Part shown: in pieces, positions 3,583 through 12,990 of the stretch
How the letters are laid out: every line of letters begins with the position of its first letter
Numbering within the stretch: the first letter of the stretch is position 1
Assembly (NCBI RefSeq): GCF_016863395.1
Contig: NZ_BOOU01000101.1
Span: 1-42,766 of the forward strand
DNA: 42,766 nucleotides
Direction: 5' to 3'
Source: Sphaerisporangium rufum
Lineage (GTDB): Bacteria; Actinomycetota; Actinomycetes; Streptosporangiales; Streptosporangiaceae
The notes under the pieces: generated by a model
Told to the model about the DNA's origin: nothing
The model's input: only the letters and a program-made list of their open reading frames with translations
Databases searched by the model: none
Made by a program: the position numbers and the translations under genes

Positions 3583-3635
3583 TGAGAGCGTACACTCAAA
3601 AGCATGTCGACTCTCAACAAAGATGGCGCTCTCAA
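3583..3635 (+). promoter_or_regulatory. Operator/promoter region: 18-bp phased CTCAA half-sites and TGAGAGCG/CGCTCTCA inverted repeat
   Basis: CTCAA occurs at 3595, 3613 and 3631, exactly 18 bp apart, each within an (A/T/G)C(A/T)CTCAA context. TGAGAGCG (3583-3590) is the exact reverse complement of CGCTCTCA (3627-3634). The first pair forms a dyad TGAG-N8-CTCA (3583-3598). The P450 -10-like hexamer TACACT (3591-3596) lies inside this dyad, 7 nt before ATG 3604. The last two half-sites are inside the P450 coding sequence. The arrangement suits repression by the divergent TetR protein; binding is inferred. Confidence 0.55.
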
Positions 3636-4833
3636 AAATTTGCCTCCGCTGCCCGGGCGGCGCGACCCTGGTCGCCCGTTCGCCCCGCCCGCCGACCTCG
3701 CGCGGCTCGGCGCGACCGGGCCGATCGTCCCGCTGACGTTCCCGGACGGCCACGCGGGATGGCTGGTCACCGGGTACGACCTCGCCCGCGCGATCCTGGC
3801 CGACCCCCGTTTCAGCGCCCGGCCGGACCTGCGGCACTCCCCGATGTCACGCCCGAACGTCCGCCCCGGCGGCACCGCCGCGCCGGCGGCACCCGGCTGG
3901 TTCCCCGGCATGGACCCCCCCGAGCACACCCGGTATCGGCGCCTGCTCACCGGCCAGTTCACCGTGCGCCGGATGAAGCGGCTCGAACCGCGCATCGCCC
4001 AGATCGTCGACGACCGGCTGGCGGCCATGGCCGCGGCCGGGCCGCCGGTGGACCTGGTGCGGGCCTTCGCGCTCCCGATCCCCTCATTGGTGATCTGCGA
4101 CCTGCTCGGCGTCCCGTACGAGGACCACGCGTTCTTCGAGGAACAGACCGACATCCTCGTCGACATGACGAACTCCGAGACCACGGCCATGACCGCCATG
4201 GCCGGGCTGGCGGGTTATCTGGGCGACCTGGTGGCACGCAAGCGCACCCACCCCGCCGATGACCTGATCAGCGGCCTGATCGGTGCCGGCGGGCTGACCG
4301 ACGAGGAACTGGTCAACATCGCCATGCTCCTGCTGGTGGCCGGGCACGAGACGACCGCGAACATGCTCGCCCTGGGCACGTTCGCCCTGCTCCGGCATCC
4401 CGACCGGCTCCACGCCTTCCGTGCGGACACATCACAGACCGCCACCGCGGTGGAGGAGCTGATGCGTTACCTGTCGATCATCCATGTCGGACCGGGTCGC
4501 GCCGCCCTGGAGGATGTCGAGCTGGGCGGCACGACCATCCGCGCTGGAGAGACCGTGATCTTGGCGCTGTCGGTCATCAACCGCGATCCCGGGCGGTTCG
4601 CCGAGCCCGGCGCCCTGCGGCTCGACCGCGCCGACGCCGGGCAGCACCTCTCCTTCGGCCATGGCGTCCACCAGTGCCTGGGACAGCAACTGGCGCGGAT
4701 CGAGATGCGCATCGGCTACCGGGCGCTGTTCGACCGCTTCCCCACCCTGCGGCTGGCGGTTCCGCCGGAGCAGGTCCCGCTGCGCGAGAACGCGATGGTC
4801 TACGGCGTATGGCGACTCCCGGTCACCTGGTGA
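3604..4833 (+). CDS. Cytochrome P450
   Basis: A 409-residue soluble bacterial P450 (class I type, needing ferredoxin and reductase from elsewhere). It has the oxygen-activating I-helix motif AGHETT at about 246-251, the K-helix ExxR (EELMR), and the heme-binding loop [10 protein letters not shown] with the axial thiolate Cys at about 358. N-terminal sequence [18 protein letters not shown] is the usual C-helix region of bacterial CYPs. The substrate cannot be inferred; no ferredoxin gene is adjacent. The start ATG 3604 has no Shine-Dalgarno but has TACACT 7 nt upstream, so it is probably leaderless. Control by the divergent TetR repressor is likely. No biosynthetic cluster surrounds it, so a xenobiotic-oxidising role is as plausible as secondary metabolism. 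Confidence 0.95.
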
Positions 4834-4988
4834 CCTGATCGGCCGGCGCGTACCGGCGGCCGGAGCGGGCCTCACCAATCGACGCCGCCGGGCCGGCACC
4901 GGTCCAGGCGCGCTCCGGGCCGTCGCCGGCGGCACCGTACGCGACCTCGGGACCCCGTTGGCGGCGGAACCACGCGATTCGCCCTCAC

Positions 4989-4994
4989 TAGGCT
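4989..4994 (+). promoter_or_regulatory. Predicted -10 element, leaderless TetR mRNA
   Basis: TAGGCT ends 6 nt before GTG 5001. The same hexamer at the same distance precedes genes at 11045 and 29869, supporting a leaderless transcript. Confidence 0.5.
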
Positions 4995-5000
4995 GAGCCC

Positions 5001-5582
5001 GTGAGACCACCGAAGGCCGGCCGGGAGACGGCGTTGCGCGCGGACGCAGCCCGCAATCGCGCGCGGGTGCTGCGGGTCGCCCGCGAGCAGCTGGCCGCGG
5101 GCGACGATTCACTGCAGCTGAACACCATCGCCCGGCTCGCCGGCGTGGGCGTGGGCACGGTGTACCGGCACTTCCCCAACCGGCACGCACTGCTGGAGGC
5201 GTTGTCGGCGGAACGCTTCCAGCAACTCGTCGACGAGGCGCGGGCGGCGGCGGCCGCCGAGGACGCCCTGGCCGGCCTGCACCGCATGCTGCGCTTCTCG
5301 CTCGCCCGCGCGCTGGACGACCCCGGGTTCGCCGCGGTGCTCGAATCGTCCGGTGACAGCGAGGCGCGGACCTCGGTGATGAAGGCCGAACTCGACGGTG
5401 CCGTCACCGAACTGCTCGACCGCGCCCGCCGGTCCGGCGCCATCCGGGGTGACATCGAGGCCGACGACCTTCGCCGGTTGATCTGCGGCATCCAGCACGC
5501 GGTCCGCTCCGGCGACGGGACCTCCCGGTATGCCGAGCTCTACCTCGACGTCCTCATCGAAGGCCTGCGACCCGCACGCTGA
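5001..5582 (+). CDS. TetR-family transcriptional regulator upstream of an SDR
   Basis: A 193-residue repressor-type protein. The HTH covers about residues 15-62, with LNTIARLAGVGVGTVYRHFPNRHALLEAL containing the family recognition helix (VGVGTVYRHF). The C-terminal helical domain resembles the SbtR/TetR_C-like domains found with redox genes. The start is GTG 5001, set by TAGGCT six bases upstream. It lies 123 bases upstream of an SDR gene in the same direction, and two copies of an AAGCGGATA-type palindrome sit in the gap between them; these are the likely operators. I see no copy of that palindrome at its own promoter, so it may control only the SDR. Confidence 0.9.
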   Translation: MRPPKAGRETALRADAARNRARVLRVAREQLAAGDDSLQLNTIARLAGVGVGTVYRHFPNRHALLEALSAERFQQLVDEARAAAAAEDALAGLHRMLRFSLARALDDPGFAAVLESSGDSEARTSVMKAELDGAVTELLDRARRSGAIRGDIEADDLRRLICGIQHAVRSGDGTSRYAELYLDVLIEGLRPAR

Positions 5583-5623
5583 GCGCGCCACGCGGTCGGC
5601 CCCATCCCATCCCTGAAAACGTC

Positions 5624-5691
5624 AAGCGGATAGCCATCCGTTTCGTGCTATGGTCACGAGCAGAGAAGCGGATAGCTATCCGCTTTAGGCT
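5624..5691 (+). promoter_or_regulatory. Two palindromic operators 42 bp apart flanking the SDR promoter
   Basis: A perfect 20-bp palindrome, AAGCGGATAGCTATCCGCTT, spans 5666-5685. A degenerate copy, AAGCGGATAGCCATCCGTTT, spans 5624-5643. The 42-bp offset is about four helical turns, so both would face the same side of the DNA. Possible -10 hexamers are TATGGT (5649-5654, between the operators) and TAGGCT (5686-5691, abutting the second). The upstream TetR protein is the obvious candidate ligand. Confidence 0.7.
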
Positions 5692-5705
5692 GATCCGGGA
5701 CGGGA

Positions 5706-6623
5706 GTGGCTGTGAAACAGGGACGACGGGCAGTGGTGACGGCGGGCACCGGCGGGATCGGCCTGGAGACGGCGGCGGGCCTGGCGGCGGCCGGGTACGC
5801 CGTCACCGTCGTCGGCCGGAGCGCCGAGCGCGGCGCGCGGGCGGTCGAGCGGATCGACTCCGCTGCGGCCGGCGCGCGGGCCAGGTTCATCGCGGCCGAC
5901 CTCGCGTCGCTCGATGCCGTCCGGGCGCTCGCCGCACTGCTGGCCGAGGAAGGGCCGCTGGACGTGCTGGTGAACAACGTCGGAGCGATGTTCGCCGACC
6001 GGCAGCGTACGGTCGACGGGATCGAGGCGACGTTCGCCGTCAACCACCTGTCCCCCTACCTGCTGACCGAACTGATGCTGCCCTCGCTCCGGGCCGGCCG
6101 GCCGAGCCGGATCGTGAACGTCACCTCCGGCGCCGTCCGGGTCGCCAAGCGCGCCTTCGACGCGGTCGAGCCACCGGGTGGCTACTACGGCTTCCACTGG
6201 TACGGCCGCGCCAAGCTCGCCAACCTCGCCTACACCCTGGATCTGGCCGAGCGGCTGCACGACACCGGCATCGCGGTGTTCGCGGCCGACCCCGGCGGCG
6301 CCGCCACCGGCATGACCGACGGAACCATGCGTTCACCGAAGATCGTCTCGCCCGCGCTGCGGCTGGTCTGGCCGCTGGTCCGGCGCACCTTCGAACGCGC
6401 CACCTCCGGCCCGGCGGCCACGGCCGCCCGATCCTCGATCACCGCCGCGACCGATGCCGCACTCCACGGCCGAACCGGCCTGGTCATCGGTCCCCGCACC
6501 CGCCCGGTGCCCCCGTATCCCCCGAGCCGCGACCCGCGGATCGTCAGGAACGTCCTCGAACTCAGCCGGCGGCTGGCACCGCTCACCCCGGCGTCGCGTG
6601 CCGGCGAGCCGCTGGGTGCGTGA
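5706..6623 (+). CDS. Short-chain dehydrogenase/reductase (SDR)
   Basis: A 305-residue NAD(P)-dependent oxidoreductase. The cofactor loop is TAGTGGIG near residues 12-19 (TGxxxGxG form), the NNxG motif is NNVG rather than the usual NNAG, and the catalytic Ser (VTSG) and YxxxK (YGRAK) are present. The extra segment before YxxxK and the length resemble retinol-dehydrogenase-like SDRs. GTG 5706 and GTG 5712 are both possible starts; GGGAG (5702-5706) gives better spacing to GTG 5712. The tandem palindromes upstream indicate control by the preceding TetR protein. The substrate is unknown. Confidence 0.88.
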   Translation: MAVKQGRRAVVTAGTGGIGLETAAGLAAAGYAVTVVGRSAERGARAVERIDSAAAGARARFIAADLASLDAVRALAALLAEEGPLDVLVNNVGAMFADRQRTVDGIEATFAVNHLSPYLLTELMLPSLRAGRPSRIVNVTSGAVRVAKRAFDAVEPPGGYYGFHWYGRAKLANLAYTLDLAERLHDTGIAVFAADPGGAATGMTDGTMRSPKIVSPALRLVWPLVRRTFERATSGPAATAARSSITAATDAALHGRTGLVIGPRTRPVPPYPPSRDPRIVRNVLELSRRLAPLTPASRAGEPLGA

Positions 6624-6712: not shown

Positions 6713-7330
6713 TCACGGCCGGACGCCGTCGGGAAAGCCGGTCCAGCGCAGGTCGGGCGGGAGGTGGCTCATGTCGTTGAACATCACGACGGTCGGCGGC
6801 AGGCCGTCCCGGTACTGGATGACGGTCAGCGCGGTGTTGGCGCTGTTCAGCCCGAGCCAGCGGGAGGGTGGCGCGTCCAGCGCGTGCCGCACCAGCCAGG
6901 CGATCGGGTAGGCGTGGGTCACCAGCACCTCGTGCCGGTCCGGCCGCCGGGGTCCTTCGGTGGCGGCGTCCGGCACCCTGGCGAACCGGGCGACCAGCGC
7001 CTCGGCCAGCCGGTGGCCCGAGGCGGCCTCGGCCTCGTCGTAGCCGTCGAAGAAACCGGCCCAGGACCGGGGGGTCTCGGCCGGGGCCGGGACGTAGGGA
7101 ACGTGGTCGATGAGTTCGGCGGCCTCGGTGACGGGCACATCCGGCAGCCATCGGCCCAGCTCCCGGGCGCACGCCTCGGCGCGGGGCAGCGGCGAGTGCC
7201 ACACCGCGTCGATCGGCAGCGCGGCGAGCCGCTCGCCGAGCAGCCCCGCCTGCCGGCGCCCGATGTCGGTGAGCCGCCCGAACGCGTCGGCCGCGCCGTG
7301 CCGGGCCAGGTAGAGGTGTCGTGTCGCCAT
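6713..7330 (-). CDS. Histidine phosphatase superfamily (branch 1) protein
   Basis: A 205-residue soluble protein. The catalytic RHG motif is at residues 10-12 (YLARHGAAD), with the second conserved histidine in VLVTHAYPIAWLV (His139). The superfamily includes phosphoglycerate mutases and SixA-type phosphohistidine phosphatases, which work through a phosphorylated active-site histidine. It lies 52 bases downstream of, and on the same strand as, the ATP-grasp/swivelling-His protein gene, with no terminator obvious between them, so the two are probably co-transcribed. That pairing suggests, but does not prove, action on a phosphohistidine or on the partner's product. Start ATG 7330. Confidence 0.85.
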   Translation of the reverse strand: MATRHLYLARHGAADAFGRLTDIGRRQAGLLGERLAALPIDAVWHSPLPRAEACARELGRWLPDVPVTEAAELIDHVPYVPAPAETPRSWAGFFDGYDEAEAASGHRLAEALVARFARVPDAATEGPRRPDRHEVLVTHAYPIAWLVRHALDAPPSRWLGLNSANTALTVIQYRDGLPPTVVMFNDMSHLPPDLRWTGFPDGVRP

Positions 7331-7382
7331 GATCTGTCCGGGCCGGGACGTCCGCGCGGACTCCCGGCCCGTCTCCTTTCGG

Positions 7383-8615
7383 TCAGCGGGCCGCCGCGGT
7401 GACGGTGCCGGTGGTGCCGTCGATCGTGATGGTGGTGCCGTCCTGGATCACGCGCGTCGCGTCCGGGACGCCGAGGACGGCGGGGATGGCGTACTCGCGA
7501 GCGACGATCGCGGCGTGCGCGAGCACCCCGCCGGTCTCGGTGACGACGCCGGCGGCCAGCCGGAGCAGCGGCGTCCAGCCGGGGTCGGTGCAGGGGCAGA
7601 CGAGGATGTCACCGGGACGCACCCGCGCGAAGTCGGCGGAGCCGCGGACGACCCGCGCGGTGCCGGTCACCCTCCCACGGCTGCCCCCGGTTCCGGTGAG
7701 GGCACCGGCCGGGACGTCCGCGGCCGGCCGGACCGGCGGGAGCGCGGCGGTGACCGGCCGGGCCTGCAGGATCCAGGGGCGGCCTCCGGCGATCGCCCAC
7801 TCGATGTCCTGCGGCCCGCCGAGCAGGGCGGCGATCCGCCCGCCGAGCCCGGCCAGCCCGGCGGCGGCCGCGTCGTCGAGCACCGGCCGGTTCCGGTCAC
7901 CGGCGGGCACCTCGCGCTCGACGAGCCGGGTGCCCAGCCGGTCGAGGCGGGTCCGCTTGTCGGCGACGGTGCGGGCGACCCGCCCGCCGGCCTCGACGTG
8001 GTAGGCGTCCGGGGTGACCGTGCCCGCGACGACGGCCGGGCCGAGACCGAAGGACGCCTCGATCCGGGTGACGTCCCCGGGGTTCGTGGGGGTGAACATG
8101 ACCCCGGACACCTCGGCGTCCAGGTGGCGCTGCACCAGGACGGCCATCATGAGATCGCCGGACCGCCGGTGGCCGGCGGCGCGCCGGTAGTCGACGGCCC
8201 GGGGGGTGAACACCGAGGCCCAGCAGGCCCGGACCGCCCGGGCGACCGCGCCGGCGCCCCGCACCGCCAGGCGGCTCTCGTGCTGGCCGGCGGCCGACGC
8301 CCGGCCGGTGTCCTCGCCCGCCGCCGACGACCGCACCGCCACCGGCGGATCGCCCAGCCCGGCGAGCGCGTGCTCCAGCGCGCCGGCCAGGGCGGGACGG
8401 AGCGGCCGGGCCTCGATCGCCCGGCGGGCCGCGGCGGGATCGTCCGGCTCGCCGCCGGGCCGGCCCGGCCGAAGGTCGCGGACGGCGTCGAGATAGCCGG
8501 CGAACGGGACGGCGAAGCCGTCCGGGACCGGCAGGCCCGCGCGGAGCAGCGCGCCCAGCGTGCCGGCCTTGCCTCCACAGGTGTCGGGGGCGGCCTCCGC
8601 CAAGGGTATGAGCAT
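7383..8615 (-). CDS. PEP/pyruvate-binding ATP-grasp protein fused directly to swivelling phosphohistidine domain
   Basis: A 410-residue protein. The N-terminal PPDK/PEP-synthase-type ATP-grasp region starts with GGKAGTLGALLRAGLPVPDGF (residues 14 on) and includes VAVRSSAAGEDT, a SGVMFT segment and DIEWAI...ILQARPV. The C-terminal mobile domain carries TETGGVLAHAAIVAREYAIP, with His367 as the predicted phospho-carrier. Such proteins move phosphate from ATP to the swivelling His and then to an acceptor. Neither the PEP-binding TIM barrel of PEP synthase nor the roughly 400-residue acceptor domain of rifampin phosphotransferase is present. The start ATG 8615 is chosen because an upstream ATG (8690) would run into the divergent gene. 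It precedes the histidine phosphatase gene. Confidence 0.88.
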   Translation of the reverse strand: MLIPLAEAAPDTCGGKAGTLGALLRAGLPVPDGFAVPFAGYLDAVRDLRPGRPGGEPDDPAAARRAIEARPLRPALAGALEHALAGLGDPPVAVRSSAAGEDTGRASAAGQHESRLAVRGAGAVARAVRACWASVFTPRAVDYRRAAGHRRSGDLMMAVLVQRHLDAEVSGVMFTPTNPGDVTRIEASFGLGPAVVAGTVTPDAYHVEAGGRVARTVADKRTRLDRLGTRLVEREVPAGDRNRPVLDDAAAAGLAGLGGRIAALLGGPQDIEWAIAGGRPWILQARPVTAALPPVRPAADVPAGALTGTGGSRGRVTGTARVVRGSADFARVRPGDILVCPCTDPGWTPLLRLAAGVVTETGGVLAHAAIVAREYAIPAVLGVPDATRVIQDGTTITIDGTTGTVTAAAR

Positions 8616-8629
8616 CCGGCCCAGCCTTT

Positions 8630-8656
8630 CAACGTTTTGTTGACAACATTTCGTTG
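8630..8656. promoter_or_regulatory. Nested 27-bp palindrome between divergent genes
   Basis: The order is CAACG, 3 bases, TGTTG, central A, CAACA, 3 bases, CGTTG. Both the inner 11-bp dyad TGTTGACAACA and the outer CAACG/CGTTG arms are symmetric about base 8643. The site overlaps the predicted -35 of the rightward operon and lies 15 bp upstream of the leftward gene's ATG. A dimeric winged-helix (MarR-like) protein, possibly the product of 9065-9700, is the natural candidate. Confidence 0.6.
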
Positions 8657-8668
8657 ATTCTGCATGCT
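8640..8668 (+). promoter_or_regulatory. SigA-type promoter for the 8676 operon
   Basis: TTGACA (8640-8645) matches the -35 consensus and is followed after 17 bp by CATGCT (8663-8668), a weak -10, 7 nt before ATG 8676. This geometry favours a leaderless mRNA starting at ATG 8676 rather than at ATG 8664. Confidence 0.45.
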
Positions 8669-8675
8669 GGACGGC

Positions 8676-9068
8676 ATGGAACGCAAGCACGGGAACGCCG
8701 ATGGGCAGGCCGACCAGAGCCAGGCCCGGCGCGAGCAGGAGGCACGCGAGCGCCTGCTGCGCCGGGGCGCGGACGCGCTGGAGGCCCGCCCGTGGCGACC
8801 CGCGCCCGCCCCGCCGTCGGCCACGGACCTCGCGCAGTTCGCCCTCTGGCGCTGGGCCGACCTGAGCCCCGAGGACATCCTCAGCGCGCTCGCCCTGCTG
8901 CCCGCCGCCCGCGCCGAGGTGGACGGGCTCGAGGCCGGGCTGCTGTTCACCGCGCGGAGCGCCGGGCTGACCTGGGCCCAGATGGCCCAGGCGATGGGGT
9001 TCAACTCCCCGCAGGCCTGCCAGCAGCGATACACCCGGCTGACCACCCGAGAGGACGCCGACTCATGA
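8676..9068 (+). CDS. Small putative DNA-binding protein, unknown family
   Basis: A 130-residue protein from ATG 8676 (an in-frame ATG at 8664 is possible but would overlap the predicted -10). The N-terminal third is charged and coil-like (QARREQEARERLLRRG). The C-terminal part, AGLTWAQMAQAMGFNSPQACQQRY, looks like a helix-turn-helix with a sigma-4/HTH_23-type pattern. Its stop overlaps the ATG of the next gene (ATGA), so the two are coupled. It is divergent from the ATP-grasp/swivel gene across the nested palindrome. I do not recognise the family; a regulatory role is inferred from the HTH-like segment and the context. Confidence 0.65.
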   Translation: MERKHGNADGQADQSQARREQEARERLLRRGADALEARPWRPAPAPPSATDLAQFALWRWADLSPEDILSALALLPAARAEVDGLEAGLLFTARSAGLTWAQMAQAMGFNSPQACQQRYTRLTTREDADS

Positions 9069-9700
9069 CGCAGGACTCCCCACCCGACCTGCTGGTCCTG
9101 CACGCCGTGCGCATCACCGGGTACGCCGACACCCCGGTGATCGCCCGCCGCTTCGGGCTGGACCCGGCCACGACCGAAGAGGCGCTGCTCGACGCCGAGG
9201 CGTACGGCTGGGTGGCGCACACCGCGTTCGGCGGCAGCGGCGGCTGGTCCCTGACCGAACGCGGCCGGGCCGAGAACGAGCGCCGGCTGGCGGCCGAGCT
9301 CGCCACCGCCGGCGGCGCCGGCGAGGTCCGGGACGTCTACCGCGAGTTCCTCCCGCTGAACGCCCGCCTCCAGCAGGCCTGCACCGATTGGCAGCTCCGG
9401 CCGGTCCCCGGCGACCGGCTCGCCGCCAACGACCACGCCGATCCCGCCTGGGACGCCCGGGTCCTGGCCGAGCTCACCGCCATCGACCGGGCGCTCGCGC
9501 CGCTGGCGGCCAGGCTGGGGCGGCTCCTCACCCGGTTCCGCGGCTACGACACCCGCTTCGCCGCCGCCCTGGCGCGCGCCCGATCCGGGGACGGGGCGTG
9601 GGTCGACGGCATCGAGGTCGACTCCTGCCACCGGGTCTGGTTCGAGCTCCACGAGGACCTCATCGCCACCCTCAACCTCGACCGCCAGACCACGCCCTGA
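9065..9700 (+). CDS. Winged-helix (MarR-like) protein, putative regulator
   Basis: A 211-residue protein from ATG 9065, overlapping the preceding stop. Residues about 8-70 (VLHAVRITGYADTPVIARRFGLDPATTEEALLDAEAYGWV and GGWSLTERGRAENERRLAAEL) form a convincing winged helix, with the beta-wing followed by the TERGR segment typical of MarR/PadR-like proteins. The rest is mainly helical, with charged residues and no motif I recognise. Coupling to 8676-9068 and divergence from the ATP-grasp/swivel operon suggest that it senses or regulates that activity. It converges on the membrane-protein gene 24 bases away. Confidence 0.7.
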   Translation: MTQDSPPDLLVLHAVRITGYADTPVIARRFGLDPATTEEALLDAEAYGWVAHTAFGGSGGWSLTERGRAENERRLAAELATAGGAGEVRDVYREFLPLNARLQQACTDWQLRPVPGDRLAANDHADPAWDARVLAELTAIDRALAPLAARLGRLLTRFRGYDTRFAAALARARSGDGAWVDGIEVDSCHRVWFELHEDLIATLNLDRQTTP

Positions 9701-9724: not shown

Positions 9725-10825
9725 TCAGCTCGCGGCGGCCGTCCGCTCGACCACCGGTCCGGCCGGGTGGCCGGGGTCCGCGGCCTGGCAGTGCCGGCAG
9801 GCGCCGCGCCGGCGCAGGGCGTAAGCGTAGGCGGCGGCCCCGAGCGCGACGCCCCACACGACGCACAACATGCTCGGCACGTTGAGGCCCCACGCGGCGG
9901 GGTCGACGCCCAGCCGGACGTTCATCAGCCCGGCCGGGATCAGCACGACCGCCACGATGCCGGCCGGGACCACGGCGAGCGCCGGCGGGACCCGCCGGCC
10001 CGCCCGGAACCAGACCCACCGCGGGTAGACCTCGCCCCAGCGGTGGACCAGACCATGGGTGAGGATCCCTCCGCAGATGGAGGCGACGGCACAGCCGAGT
10101 CCCACCTCCAGCATGCCGGGCGTCTGCTGCATCATCCGCTCGAAGTCCTCCGGGATGCCCAGCGGGATCCCGAAGTACCAGGCGATCCTGGTCACCTCGT
10201 ACGGCACGGGGGCGGCACACGCCAGGTAGACGGCCCACCGGCCCCAGCGGCGCGCGGCGTCCGGCGTGGCCCACCGCCCGGGCGCCCCGCCGCGCCGGCC
10301 GCAGCGCGCGCACGCCCGCCCGGTACGCCGCCGGTACGCGAGGGTCGCCAGGGCCCACAGCAGGCCACCGGCGAAGATGACGATCAGGTTCACCCGGTGC
10401 CAGTACAGGATGTCCCCGATGCCGTCCTGCGCGCCGGGCACCCCGGTGAAGGTGAAGACCAGCAGCAGCGGGGCGAAGGCCAGCAGCGCGAGCAGGGTGT
10501 AGTCCGGGATCAGCAGGGCGAGCGTCCCGGCCATGGCCCACCCGAAGACCAGCAGTGCCGTACGGGTGCCGCCTCGTCCCCATCCCCGGGCCATCGCCAG
10601 TGCGGCGATCGCACCGGCCGCGCCGAGCGCGGCCATGACCGGCGCGACGATCGCCGCCCGGCTCCCCTCCAGGATCGACGCCGAGGCGTGGGCGTCGTCG
10701 ACCGGCGCGAACGGGAAACCGTCCCCGCCCAGTGCCCAGTAGAGCCCGAGCGCCCCGTACGACAGCGACCACCCGGCCGCGGCGTACCCGGCCCAGGCCG
10801 GCCAGTACCTCACCCAGCGGAACAT
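9725..10825 (-). CDS. Multi-pass membrane protein with two CxxC motifs, unknown function
   Basis: A 366-residue protein with roughly eight hydrophobic segments (for example near residues 10-30, 58-78, 90-107, 110-128, 150-165, 200-220, 285-305 and 325-345). Two short Cys motifs stand out: CARC in the arginine-rich loop at about residue 173 (RACARCGRRGG) and CRHC near the C-terminus (GACRHCQAADP). Both sit beside positively charged residues, so they are probably cytoplasmic and could bind zinc together. I do not recognise the family. Start ATG 10825; the gene is divergent from a histidine kinase and convergent with the MarR-like gene. Confidence 0.75.
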   Translation of the reverse strand: MFRWVRYWPAWAGYAAAGWSLSYGALGLYWALGGDGFPFAPVDDAHASASILEGSRAAIVAPVMAALGAAGAIAALAMARGWGRGGTRTALLVFGWAMAGTLALLIPDYTLLALLAFAPLLLVFTFTGVPGAQDGIGDILYWHRVNLIVIFAGGLLWALATLAYRRRTGRACARCGRRGGAPGRWATPDAARRWGRWAVYLACAAPVPYEVTRIAWYFGIPLGIPEDFERMMQQTPGMLEVGLGCAVASICGGILTHGLVHRWGEVYPRWVWFRAGRRVPPALAVVPAGIVAVVLIPAGLMNVRLGVDPAAWGLNVPSMLCVVWGVALGAAAYAYALRRRGACRHCQAADPGHPAGPVVERTAAAS

Positions 10826-10953
10826 CCGCCCATCACATCCTCACCATCTCGCCGGGGCCCGGGCCGCGCTCGCGACCGGGACATCTCGACGGCGGGCTGC
10901 GCGCCGGCCGGGTCCCCTGCACAAGCTTCGGAGGCCATGGGCCACCGGCCCAG

Positions 10954-11009
10954 GTGCCGAACGGCATGGCCGCGGGCGGGGTCCGGCGGGTCGATGTGCC
11001 GTTCGGCAC
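10954..11009. promoter_or_regulatory. Two TGCCG-N2-CGGCA dyads 42 bp apart
   Basis: GTGCCGAACGGCAT (10954-10967) and GTGCCGTTCGGCAC (10996-11009) are dyads with a 2-base centre, offset by 42 bp (about four helical turns). They lie between the divergent membrane-protein and histidine-kinase genes, upstream of the kinase's predicted -10. They fit as response-regulator or repressor sites; the binding protein is unknown. Confidence 0.55.
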
Positions 11010-11032
11010 GGGCGGCGGACCGGCACGCTGTC

Positions 11033-11038
11033 TAGGCT
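11033..11038 (+). promoter_or_regulatory. Predicted -10 element, leaderless kinase mRNA
   Basis: TAGGCT ends 6 nt before GTG 11045. The intervening GGGAGG-like bases are too close to the start to work as a normal Shine-Dalgarno. Confidence 0.5.
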
Positions 11039-11044
11039 GGGAGG

Positions 11045-12328
11045 GTGCGTACCGGTGGAGCCCCGCGGCGGCGCGAACGGGCCGGCGCGGCCGTCGCCGT
11101 CCTGGTGACGATGGCCGGTGTGGCCTGCACGCCCGCGTACGGCCCGCCGGCCACGCTGCCGGCGTCGGTGACGATGGCCGCCGCGCTCGGCGTGCTCGCC
11201 GCCTGGCCGCAGGACGGCCGCCGGGTCGCGGCGGTCACCGGCGGGGCGGGCCTCGTGTCGCTCGCCGCGACCGCGGCCGTCCGGTCGCTCGGCGCGGACG
11301 TCTCCGCGCCCGGCTGGCCGGTCGGCGAGTCGGCGAGCCTGCTCGTGCTGATCGTCCTGGTGGTACGGACCGCTCCGCCCCGCCACGCGCCGGCCGCCGC
11401 CGGACTGGCCGGGGTGGCCACGCCGGCCCTGCTGCTCCGGTTCGAGCCGGGCCCGCCGACCATCGAGGCGCTGGCCGGATTCGCCGTCTGGGGACTGTCG
11501 GCGGCACTCGCCGCCACCATCGGGCTCTACCTGCGCTCCCTGGACGGCCACCGCGCCCGCGCGGTACGCGCGGCGCGCCGGGCGCAGCGCACCCGCCTCG
11601 CCCGGGACCTGCACGACTTCGTGGCCCACGACGTCAGCGGGATGCTCGCCCAGGCCCAGGTCGGCCGGATCCTGGCCGAGCGGGACCCGCGGCAGGCGGT
11701 GGCCGCGTTCGAGCGCATCGAGCAGGCCGCGCTGCAGGCGCTGGCGTCGATGGACCGGACGGTGCGGATGCTGCACGAGGCCGATGACGCCGCGGACGAG
11801 GAGCCGGCGGACCGGGCGCCGCCCCCGGCGCTGGCGAACCTGCGGGAACTGGCCGACCGGTTCGCCTCCTCCGGCACCGCGGTGGTGCGTCTCGACATCG
11901 ACGCGGGGCTGGCGGACCCGGACGGCGGCGTGCCGCGCGAGGTGTCGGCCACGGCGTACCGGGTCGTCGTCGAGGCGCTGACCAACGTGCGCCGCCACGC
12001 GGTGGCGGCGAGCCGGGTGGAGGTGGCCGTCCATCGCACCCGCGTCGTGGGCTTCGGGCCCGCGCTGGAGGTCACCGTGACAGACGATGCCCGGCCCGGA
12101 CCCGCGCCCGTCCGGCACCTGCTCGGCGGTGCGAGAGGCGGTGACACGAGGAACGGTGACACGAGGAACGGTGGCGGATTCGGCCTGGCCGGGCTGGCCG
12201 AACGCGTCGAGGCGCTCGGTGGCCGGCTGGCCGCCGGTCCGCACGATCCGCGTGGCTGGCGGGTCACCGTCACCCTGCCGCTGGCGCCCGCACCGCACGG
12301 CGGCGACACCCGGCCGGTCACGGCATGA
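11045..12328 (+). CDS. Sensor histidine kinase (HisKA_3, NarL/DesK-like)
   Basis: A 427-residue membrane kinase. About five N-terminal hydrophobic segments (residues 12-165) are followed by the dimerisation/phosphoacceptor motif ARDLHDFVAHDVSG (phospho-His about 196) and a GHKL ATPase domain with an N-box (EALTNVRRHA) and G2 box (GFGLAGLAERVEALGG). No extracellular sensor domain is obvious, so it probably senses the membrane or a partner. The ATP-lid region contains a 15-bp tandem duplication (12139-12168) that adds GDTRN twice. The start GTG 11045 is set by TAGGCT 6 nt upstream. Its stop overlaps the ATG of its response regulator. Confidence 0.92.
   Translation: MRTGGAPRRRERAGAAVAVLVTMAGVACTPAYGPPATLPASVTMAAALGVLAAWPQDGRRVAAVTGGAGLVSLAATAAVRSLGADVSAPGWPVGESASLLVLIVLVVRTAPPRHAPAAAGLAGVATPALLLRFEPGPPTIEALAGFAVWGLSAALAATIGLYLRSLDGHRARAVRAARRAQRTRLARDLHDFVAHDVSGMLAQAQVGRILAERDPRQAVAAFERIEQAALQALASMDRTVRMLHEADDAADEEPADRAPPPALANLRELADRFASSGTAVVRLDIDAGLADPDGGVPREVSATAYRVVVEALTNVRRHAVAASRVEVAVHRTRVVGFGPALEVTVTDDARPGPAPVRHLLGGARGGDTRNGDTRNGGGFGLAGLAERVEALGGRLAAGPHDPRGWRVTVTLPLAPAPHGGDTRPVTA
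12139..12168 (+). repeat. 15-bp tandem duplication in kinase ATP lid
   Basis: The 15-mer CGGTGACACGAGGAA occurs twice head to tail and preserves frame, giving GDTRNGDTRN between the DDA (G1) and GFGLAGL (G2) boxes. Slippage could change copy number without a frameshift. Confidence 0.85.
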
Positions 12329-12990
12329 CCGGCCGGCCGATCCGCGTCCTGGTCGCCGACGACCAGGAGGACATCCGCGGCGCGTTCCGGATCATCCTGG
12401 ACGCCCAGCCGGACATGACCGTCGTCGCCGAGGCCGCCTGCGGGGTCACCGCCGTCGAGCAGGCCCGCCACCTGCGCCCGGACGTGGTGCTCGCCGACAT
12501 CAGGATGCCGCGCCTGGACGGGCTGGAGGTCACCCGCCTACTCGCCGGGCCCCAGGTGACCGACCCCATCCGGGTCGTGGTCGTCACCACCTTCGACCTC
12601 GACGACTACGTCCACACCGCGCTGCGCAACGGCGCCTGCGGCTTCCTGCTGAAACGCTCCAGTCCCACCCTGCTCGCCGAGGCCGTCCGGGCCGCCATGT
12701 CCGGGGACACCCTCATCAGCCCGCAGATCACCGTACGGCTGCTGCGCGAGCTCACCGCGGCACCGCCGCCGGCGTCCGGCCGCGCCGATCGCACCCGGCT
12801 CACCGAGCGCGAGCTCCAGATCACCCGGCTGGTCGCCCAGGGCCACACCAACGCGGAGATCGCCACCGCGCTGTTCATCTCCCCCGGCACCGTCAAGAAC
12901 CACATCGCCGGCGTCCAGCGCAAGCTCGGCGCCCGCAACCGGGTCGGCATCGCCGCCTGGGCCTGGTCCACCGGCAACGCCGCCCCGTGA
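12325..12990 (+). CDS. LuxR-family (NarL-type) response regulator
   Basis: A 221-residue regulator. The receiver domain covers about residues 7-125: acidic pocket DDQ, phosphoacceptor Asp in DVVLADIRMPRLDG, conserved Thr in VVTTFD, Lys in FLLKRS. The LuxR HTH covers about 150-215 (LTERELQITRLVAQGHTNAEIATALFISPGTVKNHI). ATG 12325 overlaps the kinase stop by 4 bases, so the pair is stoichiometrically co-translated. It is followed by convergent DNA with an 11-bp direct repeat, CACCGTCAGGC, at 12998 and 13012. Its targets are unknown, but the tandem dyads upstream of the kinase are plausible. Confidence 0.93.
   Translation: MTGRPIRVLVADDQEDIRGAFRIILDAQPDMTVVAEAACGVTAVEQARHLRPDVVLADIRMPRLDGLEVTRLLAGPQVTDPIRVVVVTTFDLDDYVHTALRNGACGFLLKRSSPTLLAEAVRAAMSGDTLISPQITVRLLRELTAAPPPASGRADRTRLTERELQITRLVAQGHTNAEIATALFISPGTVKNHIAGVQRKLGARNRVGIAAWAWSTGNAAP

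Follow-up and report, generated by a model that had tools for sequence, protein, structure and literature searches.

We analysed a 42,766-nucleotide stretch of the Sphaerisporangium rufum genome (contig NZ_BOOU01000101.1 of RefSeq assembly GCF_016863395.1, positions 1 to 42,766; henceforth the window), focusing on four genes grouped around a putative operator. The initial annotation had described a 410-residue protein with ATP-grasp and swivelling phosphohistidine domains but no acceptor domain, encoded 52 bp from a histidine phosphatase gene and divergently from two coupled helix-turn-helix (HTH) genes, and this gene set is borne out by the coordinates and by Pfam (Table 1). Specifically, the phosphatase gene lies downstream of the gene for the 410-residue protein (which we call the kinase) on the same strand, across a gap of 52 bp (7331-7382), and the two HTH genes (HTH1 and HTH2) are coupled on the plus strand by a 4-bp overlap. 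The 48 bp between the kinase and HTH1 starts carry a tandem dyad, and the whole cassette (kinase, partner, phosphatase and single operator) fits in 3 kb. Among the four cassette proteins, Pfam detected neither of the canonical two-component parts, i.e., a HATPase_c kinase or a receiver domain.

Table 1. Genes and sites of the cassette, in window coordinates.
Feature	Position	Strand	Basis
HisPhos, branch-1 histidine phosphatase, 205 aa	6713..7330	-	His_Phos_1 match
ATP-grasp + swivelling phosphohistidine protein (kinase), 410 aa from its ATG	7383..8615	-	PPDK_N + PEP-utilizers
Putative operator, two tandem CAAY-N5-RTTG dyads in divergent promoter region	8630..8656	.	Pattern search
Consensus-like HTH1 promoter, TTGACA 8640-8645 / CATGCT 8663-8668, 17 bp between	8640..8668	+	By eye
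HTH1, small HTH protein, 134 aa (130 aa from ATG 8676)	8664..9068	+	Open reading frame, starts in relatives
HTH2, MarR-like winged helix (1-84) + four-helix bundle (85-211)	9065..9700	+	Alignment + model

The kinase consists of a PPDK_N domain (E 3e-58) joined directly to a PEP-utilizers domain (E 9e-27) and ends 43 residues past H367, the C-terminal PEP/pyruvate-binding barrel of PEP synthase and pyruvate phosphate dikinase (PPDK) being absent. Its closest solved structures are of the long, three-domain rifampin phosphotransferase (RPH) or PEP synthase kind, which it matches in two segments, leaving out about 440 residues between them. Against the RPH model NF041857 it scored 289 bits (cut-off 999), with no substrate-binding domain between its two domains. 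It thus has the ATP-grasp and swivelling-His domains and the catalytic residues in common with RPH, but lacks the substrate-binding middle domain (about 430 residues) and adds a dedicated cassette of HTH2, HTH1 and phosphatase. In an alignment of 43 rows (the window protein and 42 of 55 cluster members of 360-450 aa, 13 being omitted for length; one row, locus L167 in our numbering, is of the VadK type described below), H367, R95, Q269, D270, E272, Q284 and R286 were identical in every row and K16 in 98%. The accessible text on RPH reports that Lys22, Arg117 and His825 matter for catalysis and that resistance was unaffected by replacement of Glu297 (PMC4844700); in our own comparison all four appear to have equivalents among the conserved residues of the kinase. 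From these invariant residues and the chemistry of RPH and VadK, we predict H367 to be the site of autophosphorylation.

A possible objection to the initial annotation was that close relatives might carry a longer RPH or PEP synthase of which this protein is a truncated copy; instead, they carry the same short protein. Near-full-length matches were found in the own genome and in eight of 40 relatives (41 genomes; the eight 69-75% identical), all in stop-to-stop frames of 408-574 aa. A scan of a species-genome collection with the kinase returned the best 80 of 108 relatives, and 40 of these 80 loci belong to the short family, in Microbispora, Nonomuraea, Microtetraspora, Streptosporangium, Sinosporangium, Acrocarpospora, Actinomadura, Nocardia, Rhodococcus, Kribbella, Micromonospora, Pseudosporangium, Streptomyces and two metagenome-assembled genomes (MAGs). 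The longest stop-to-stop frame in the family (618 aa) is too short for an added acceptor domain. The 410-aa protein is a member of a separate family of about 400 aa, and no local truncation.

To place this family, we used a midpoint-rooted FastTree phylogeny of 77 proteins (353 positions), in which the 21 short-family proteins fell inside a clade with RPH-type proteins (joining node 0.91), the family's own node having a support of 0.17, i.e., its monophyly is poorly supported. A further 14 short, PPDK-like kinases, which entered the tree because their genes adjoin HTH2 genes, grouped with full PPDK (support 1.0), apart from the window's family. Against PRK05878, a model of the PPDK-derived VadK type, the window protein scored 58.6 bits, below the cut-off of 456, which was passed by kinases at L168, L187 and L192 (908, 484 and 495 bits).

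The neighbourhood of the kinase gene recurs in other actinobacteria, which answers a second possible objection to the initial annotation. Within 3.5 kb, HTH2 was found at all 38 loci with usable flanks, HTH1 at 34, the phosphatase at 27 and all three at 24. These loci (L037-L077 minus L064 and L072, at contig ends, and L075, outside the family) span 13 named genera and one Egibacteraceae MAG; they come from few orders and include some genomes twice (L057/L148 and L068/L178), so the counts are not independent, and genes in relatives were called with a simple caller of our own. Since L065-L067 (Micromonospora, Pseudosporangium and one Streptomyces) keep the members in altered order or strand, with HTH1 missing and the phosphatase behind HTH2 on the other strand, the association of kinase, HTH2 and phosphatase survives rearrangement.

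The nested palindrome noted between the divergent genes has genuine dyad symmetry, but two tandem dyads fit the site better than one nested palindrome. In the 7.8-Mb own genome this pattern occurs in one place only, even with one mismatch allowed (0 for a control pattern), and it never arose in 2000 rounds of mononucleotide shuffling of 48 upstream regions. With fixed spacing and at most 110 bp upstream of the kinase, it was present at 31 of 40 loci with HTH1 and at none of five loci without HTH1 (one of the five, L064, lies at a contig end and offers 215 bp of upstream sequence; L018, a long protein, was dropped, and the operator-bearing L182 and L183, whose fetched pieces show no HTH1, were omitted). 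The operator also precedes HTH1 at L151, where no ATP-grasp gene was found in the fetched stretch, and occurs twice at L071, once ahead of HTH1 and once ahead of the kinase, which lies 2.4 kb away. At L190 (5378-6464), HTH1 and HTH2 stand with no kinase in the fetched stretch and three tandem operator dyads ahead of them. HTH1 itself matched no Pfam family above cut-off, with just sub-threshold Myb/LexA-like matches. Because the operator co-occurs with HTH1, the latter is the likely cognate operator binder and predicted DNA regulator, and because the operator has a single place in the own genome, the direct control exerted by the circuit appears to be local. HTH1 probably starts at ATG 8676, as in most aligned relatives; its transcript would then be leaderless. 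The putative HTH1 promoter overlaps the operator.

We regard HTH2 as the central part of the cassette. It gave no Pfam match at E<=1. MarR-family proteins consist of a winged helix plus dimerisation helices only; HTH2 has the winged helix in common with them but carries an added, conserved four-helix bundle of 127 residues. Ten residues, two of them histidines, are invariant in 53 diverse members (F95, N99, W109, Q110, R157, S187, H189, W192, H196 and R207). HTH2 was found in 20 of 41 relatives and, in an independent draw, in 30 of 296 genomes sampled across the phylum; 24 of these 30 were examined, the others being the own genome and five whose matches were weak or fragmentary. At 13 of the 24 fetched loci, a gene for an ATP-grasp/His protein or a bare His domain lies at most two genes away: L147 and L148 are window-type loci, L152, L160, L161 and L165-L169 have short PPDK-like kinases, and L150, L151 and L159 carry His domains on their own (94-131 aa), with the catalytic His and the residues around it preserved in the first two. 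In L151 (6007-7321, minus strand), HTH1, a stand-alone swivel His domain (110 aa) and HTH2 form an overlapping operon with the tandem-dyad operator upstream. Among loci from the 20 relatives, further pairs of HTH2 with a kinase of about 540 aa occur at L187-L189, L191-L193 and L196, and HTH2 without a kinase at L190. Because the tree separates the window kinase (RPH-type clade) from the 14 PPDK-grouped partners, the short kinases found beside HTH2 have two origins, RPH-type and PPDK-type, although the PPDK-type ones had been selected for the tree by this adjacency. These patterns suggest that HTH2 is the common element, tracking the kinase including a second shortened class, where HTH1 tracks the operator.

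Several other HTH2 loci have a distinct make-up. A protein of 368-393 aa, which we take to be TetR-like, recurs beside the pairs of HTH2 and an approximately 540-aa kinase at L160, L189, L191 and L192. L161 (5944-9664) and L165 (4362-8506) have, next to HTH2, an ATP-grasp+His gene plus a second gene whose His domain follows a long N-terminal part; they are like two-component phenol-type dikinases with HpeH-type proteins, but have two swivel domains. At L194 (5874-8069, minus strand), a 731-aa fusion joins an AMP-forming ligase-type enzyme (AMP-binding, AMP-binding_C) to a complete HTH2 (527-729) and adjoins an opposite-strand gene with a C-terminal His domain, among catabolic-looking genes.

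The phosphatase matches His_Phos_1 (E 2e-21) and has the superfamily's RHG motif and its second catalytic His; R10, H11, G12, R50, E72 and H139 are identical in 38 of 38 rows and E85 in 37. It has the branch-1 histidine phosphatase fold in common with PGAM5 and SixA. Its nearest solved structures are those of PGAM5, at only about 51 bits, and it scored 18.9 bits against the SixA model, far under the cut-off of 74.5. A review, in its accessible text, credits PGAM5 with dephosphorylating NME2 on His118 (PMC11277029). At L187-L189, in three relatives without the 410-aa protein, HTH2 and an approximately 540-aa kinase are followed by a convergent phosphatase 65-68% identical to that of the window. 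A different histidine phosphatase (His_Phos_1, E 5e-36) directly follows HTH2 at L164 (5953-7138), with no kinase adjacent.

The closest characterised counterpart of the kinase is VadK (Rv1127c), a short, PPDK-derived protein which, according to the accessible text of its description, autophosphorylates on His422 with ATP and Mg, an activity abolished by H422A, and which is reported in Nocardia, Streptomyces and Rhodococcus (PMC13400623). The same text describes interactions of VadK with methylcitrate-cycle enzymes, whose transcripts did not change significantly upon vadK deletion, although elsewhere in the mutant's transcriptome 28 genes went up and 21 down. Co-expression of the operon partner Rv1126c improved the solubility of VadK, this being the only role given to it there, and the two were separated by a 2 M NaCl wash (PMC13400623). 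We infer from these two observations that Rv1126c binds VadK, a conclusion which the accessible part of the paper does not itself draw. Because a VadK-type gene overlaps an HTH2 gene at L168, in a Mycobacteriaceae-type genome, Rv1126c would belong to the HTH2 family, by the synteny of L168 and L169 rather than by sequence comparison. VadK is thus a short ATP-grasp and swivel-His protein without an acceptor, like the window kinase, with a partner gene presumably of the HTH2 family. It differs in that VadK is cut from PPDK whereas the window protein lies in the RPH-type clade, and the VadK-type pairs at L168 and L169 have no HTH1 or phosphatase within three genes and no operator match. What is new is a second, RPH-type branch of VadK-like kinases with a partner family, a dedicated phosphatase and an operator; the cassette counts as a variant of a very recently described kind and not as a wholly new one.

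These comparisons bear on two claims of the initial annotation. The autophosphorylation of VadK, a comparable short kinase (PMC13400623, accessible text), now makes a phosphohistidine circuit plausible, but the two HTH genes are not equivalent. The notion of two dedicated regulators holds for HTH1, the likely DNA regulator that tracks the operator, but HTH2 tracks the kinase and, judging from the VadK methods, is probably its physical partner instead.

We put at about one half the probability that the cassette works as a self-contained phosphohistidine switch made up of an autophosphorylating kinase, HTH2 as reader, the phosphatase as reset and HTH1 as gene control. The 410-aa protein would bind ATP in its ATP-grasp domain and load phosphate onto H367 of the swivelling domain, as its invariant residues and the chemistry of RPH and VadK suggest; without an acceptor domain for discharge, the phosphohistidine state itself would matter. 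HTH2 would bind the kinase, by analogy with Rv1126c and VadK, and would read, or conceivably accept, the phosphate via its invariant His, Asn, Gln, Trp and Arg residues. The PGAM5-like phosphatase would return the system to zero, and HTH1, to go by its co-occurrence with the operator, would bind the tandem dyad and control both divergent units. An extended form of this switch, which we regard as rather unlikely, is a new phosphorelay class in which small-molecule phosphotransferases have, on at least two occasions, lost their substrate domain and become ATP-grasp/swivel kinases that pass the swivel-His phosphate to an invariant His in the bundle of the HTH2/Rv1126c family, with a PGAM5-like off-switch.

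As far as we know, VadK is the only short dikinase-derived histidine kinase to have been characterised. Our comparison suggests that its partner is a general element, from a winged-helix and four-helix-bundle family without a fitting Pfam model that recurs beside short kinases of both origins, bare swivel domains and histidine phosphatases. The conserved four-gene set, carried by many actinobacteria, has the look of a little-known type of histidine-phosphate signalling, and the 3-kb cassette makes a suspected non-canonical phosphohistidine pathway directly testable in vitro.

Several observations weigh against the phosphohistidine switch. Eleven of the 38 loci lack the phosphatase, which was also not found in the whole genome of one relative (G022) at E<=1e-20 and is therefore dispensable. 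No HTH1 was found within 3.5 kb at L065-L067 and L069, and at nine of the 40 loci with HTH1 the stretch upstream of the kinase does not match the strict operator pattern (among these, L070 has an operator beside HTH1 outside the 110-bp stretch, as does the genome of L015, at L177). The four-helix bundle of HTH2 has no clear match in the PDB. At 11 of the 24 HTH2 loci there is no kinase or swivel gene within three genes, and seven of these (L153-L158 and L163) share one recurring neighbourhood, presumably dapA - RNase J, in several cases with an ftsK-like gene; the neighbour names dapA, RNase J and TetR used for other loci were assigned by inspection and recall, without a family search. Finally, the lack of a significant change in methylcitrate-cycle transcripts upon vadK deletion speaks against a simple transcriptional read-out in that relative (PMC13400623, accessible text).

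This last point, with the reported VadK-enzyme interactions and the gain in VadK solubility through Rv1126c (PMC13400623, accessible text), fits a different explanation, in which the system is a VadK-like metabolic regulator: the phosphorylated kinase would bind metabolic enzymes, HTH2 would merely stabilise it and HTH1 would be an ordinary autoregulator. We consider this a serious but doubtful alternative. Leaving aside the cassette's own four genes, even the most frequent gene cluster is present in at most 15 of the 71 loci compared, so that no metabolic target is suggested. In our judgement, ten invariant residues in 53 HTH2 members exceed the needs of a mere chaperone. In addition, VadK-type proteins group with PPDK, outside the RPH-type clade.

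That the window protein lies within the RPH-type clade suits another explanation, namely a small-molecule dikinase with its acceptor in trans: as in RPH or HpeHI, a compound would be phosphorylated, here while held by the HTH2 bundle or a long paralogue, and then dephosphorylated by the phosphatase. Split systems of this kind exist. In the accessible text on HpeHI and phenylphosphate synthase, the ATP-grasp and swivel/substrate parts work as separate proteins, and the two-component dikinases HpeHI, CreHI and PpsAB divide an RPH-type architecture across proteins, as here (PMC12167813). L161 and L165, with their long His-domain genes beside HTH2, and the L194 ligase-HTH2 fusion beside such a gene, are also in keeping with this. 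However, in HpeHI-type systems the swivel domain sits on the acceptor protein and HpeI has none (PMC12167813, accessible text), whereas in the window it sits on the ATP-grasp protein. A PF00391 search of the own assembly (99% complete) found seven swivel domains: those of the window protein, three RPH-type enzymes (frames of 878, 900 and 1483 aa), one full PPDK and two PTS enzymes I (L216 and L219, by Pfam domains). With all seven places accounted for, no separate acceptor+His protein was found in the assembly, and the 'acceptor in trans' of the initial annotation, if there is any, may thus be HTH2 itself. The C-terminal domain of HTH2, in turn, did not resemble RPH middle domains in a profile comparison (probability under 1%). 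We regard a small-molecule dikinase as improbable.

Least credible, and already disfavoured, is a degenerate RPH or PEP synthase, devoid of its former acceptor domain and persisting by drift: the grouping with RPH-type enzymes and a locus with only a 16-residue phosphatase match beside the kinase (L047) would fit, but the catalytic residues are conserved throughout the family, the cassette and operator are conserved, and no frame in the family has room for an acceptor domain.

One relative genome (G040) gave 21 matches to the kinase query, many to the swivel domain only, in frames of about 540-980 aa, which suggests that it holds a large set of acceptor+His proteins. In the window itself, the cassette is preceded (3604-6623) by a row of genes for a cytochrome P450 (pentalenolactone-synthase-like, 254 of 700 bits), a TetR regulator and a short-chain dehydrogenase/reductase (SDR). 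On its other side (9725-12990) lie a membrane-protein-like open reading frame without a family, a HisKA_3 sensor kinase and a response-regulator-looking open reading frame, the latter two forming an ordinary-looking two-component system that adjoins the cassette.

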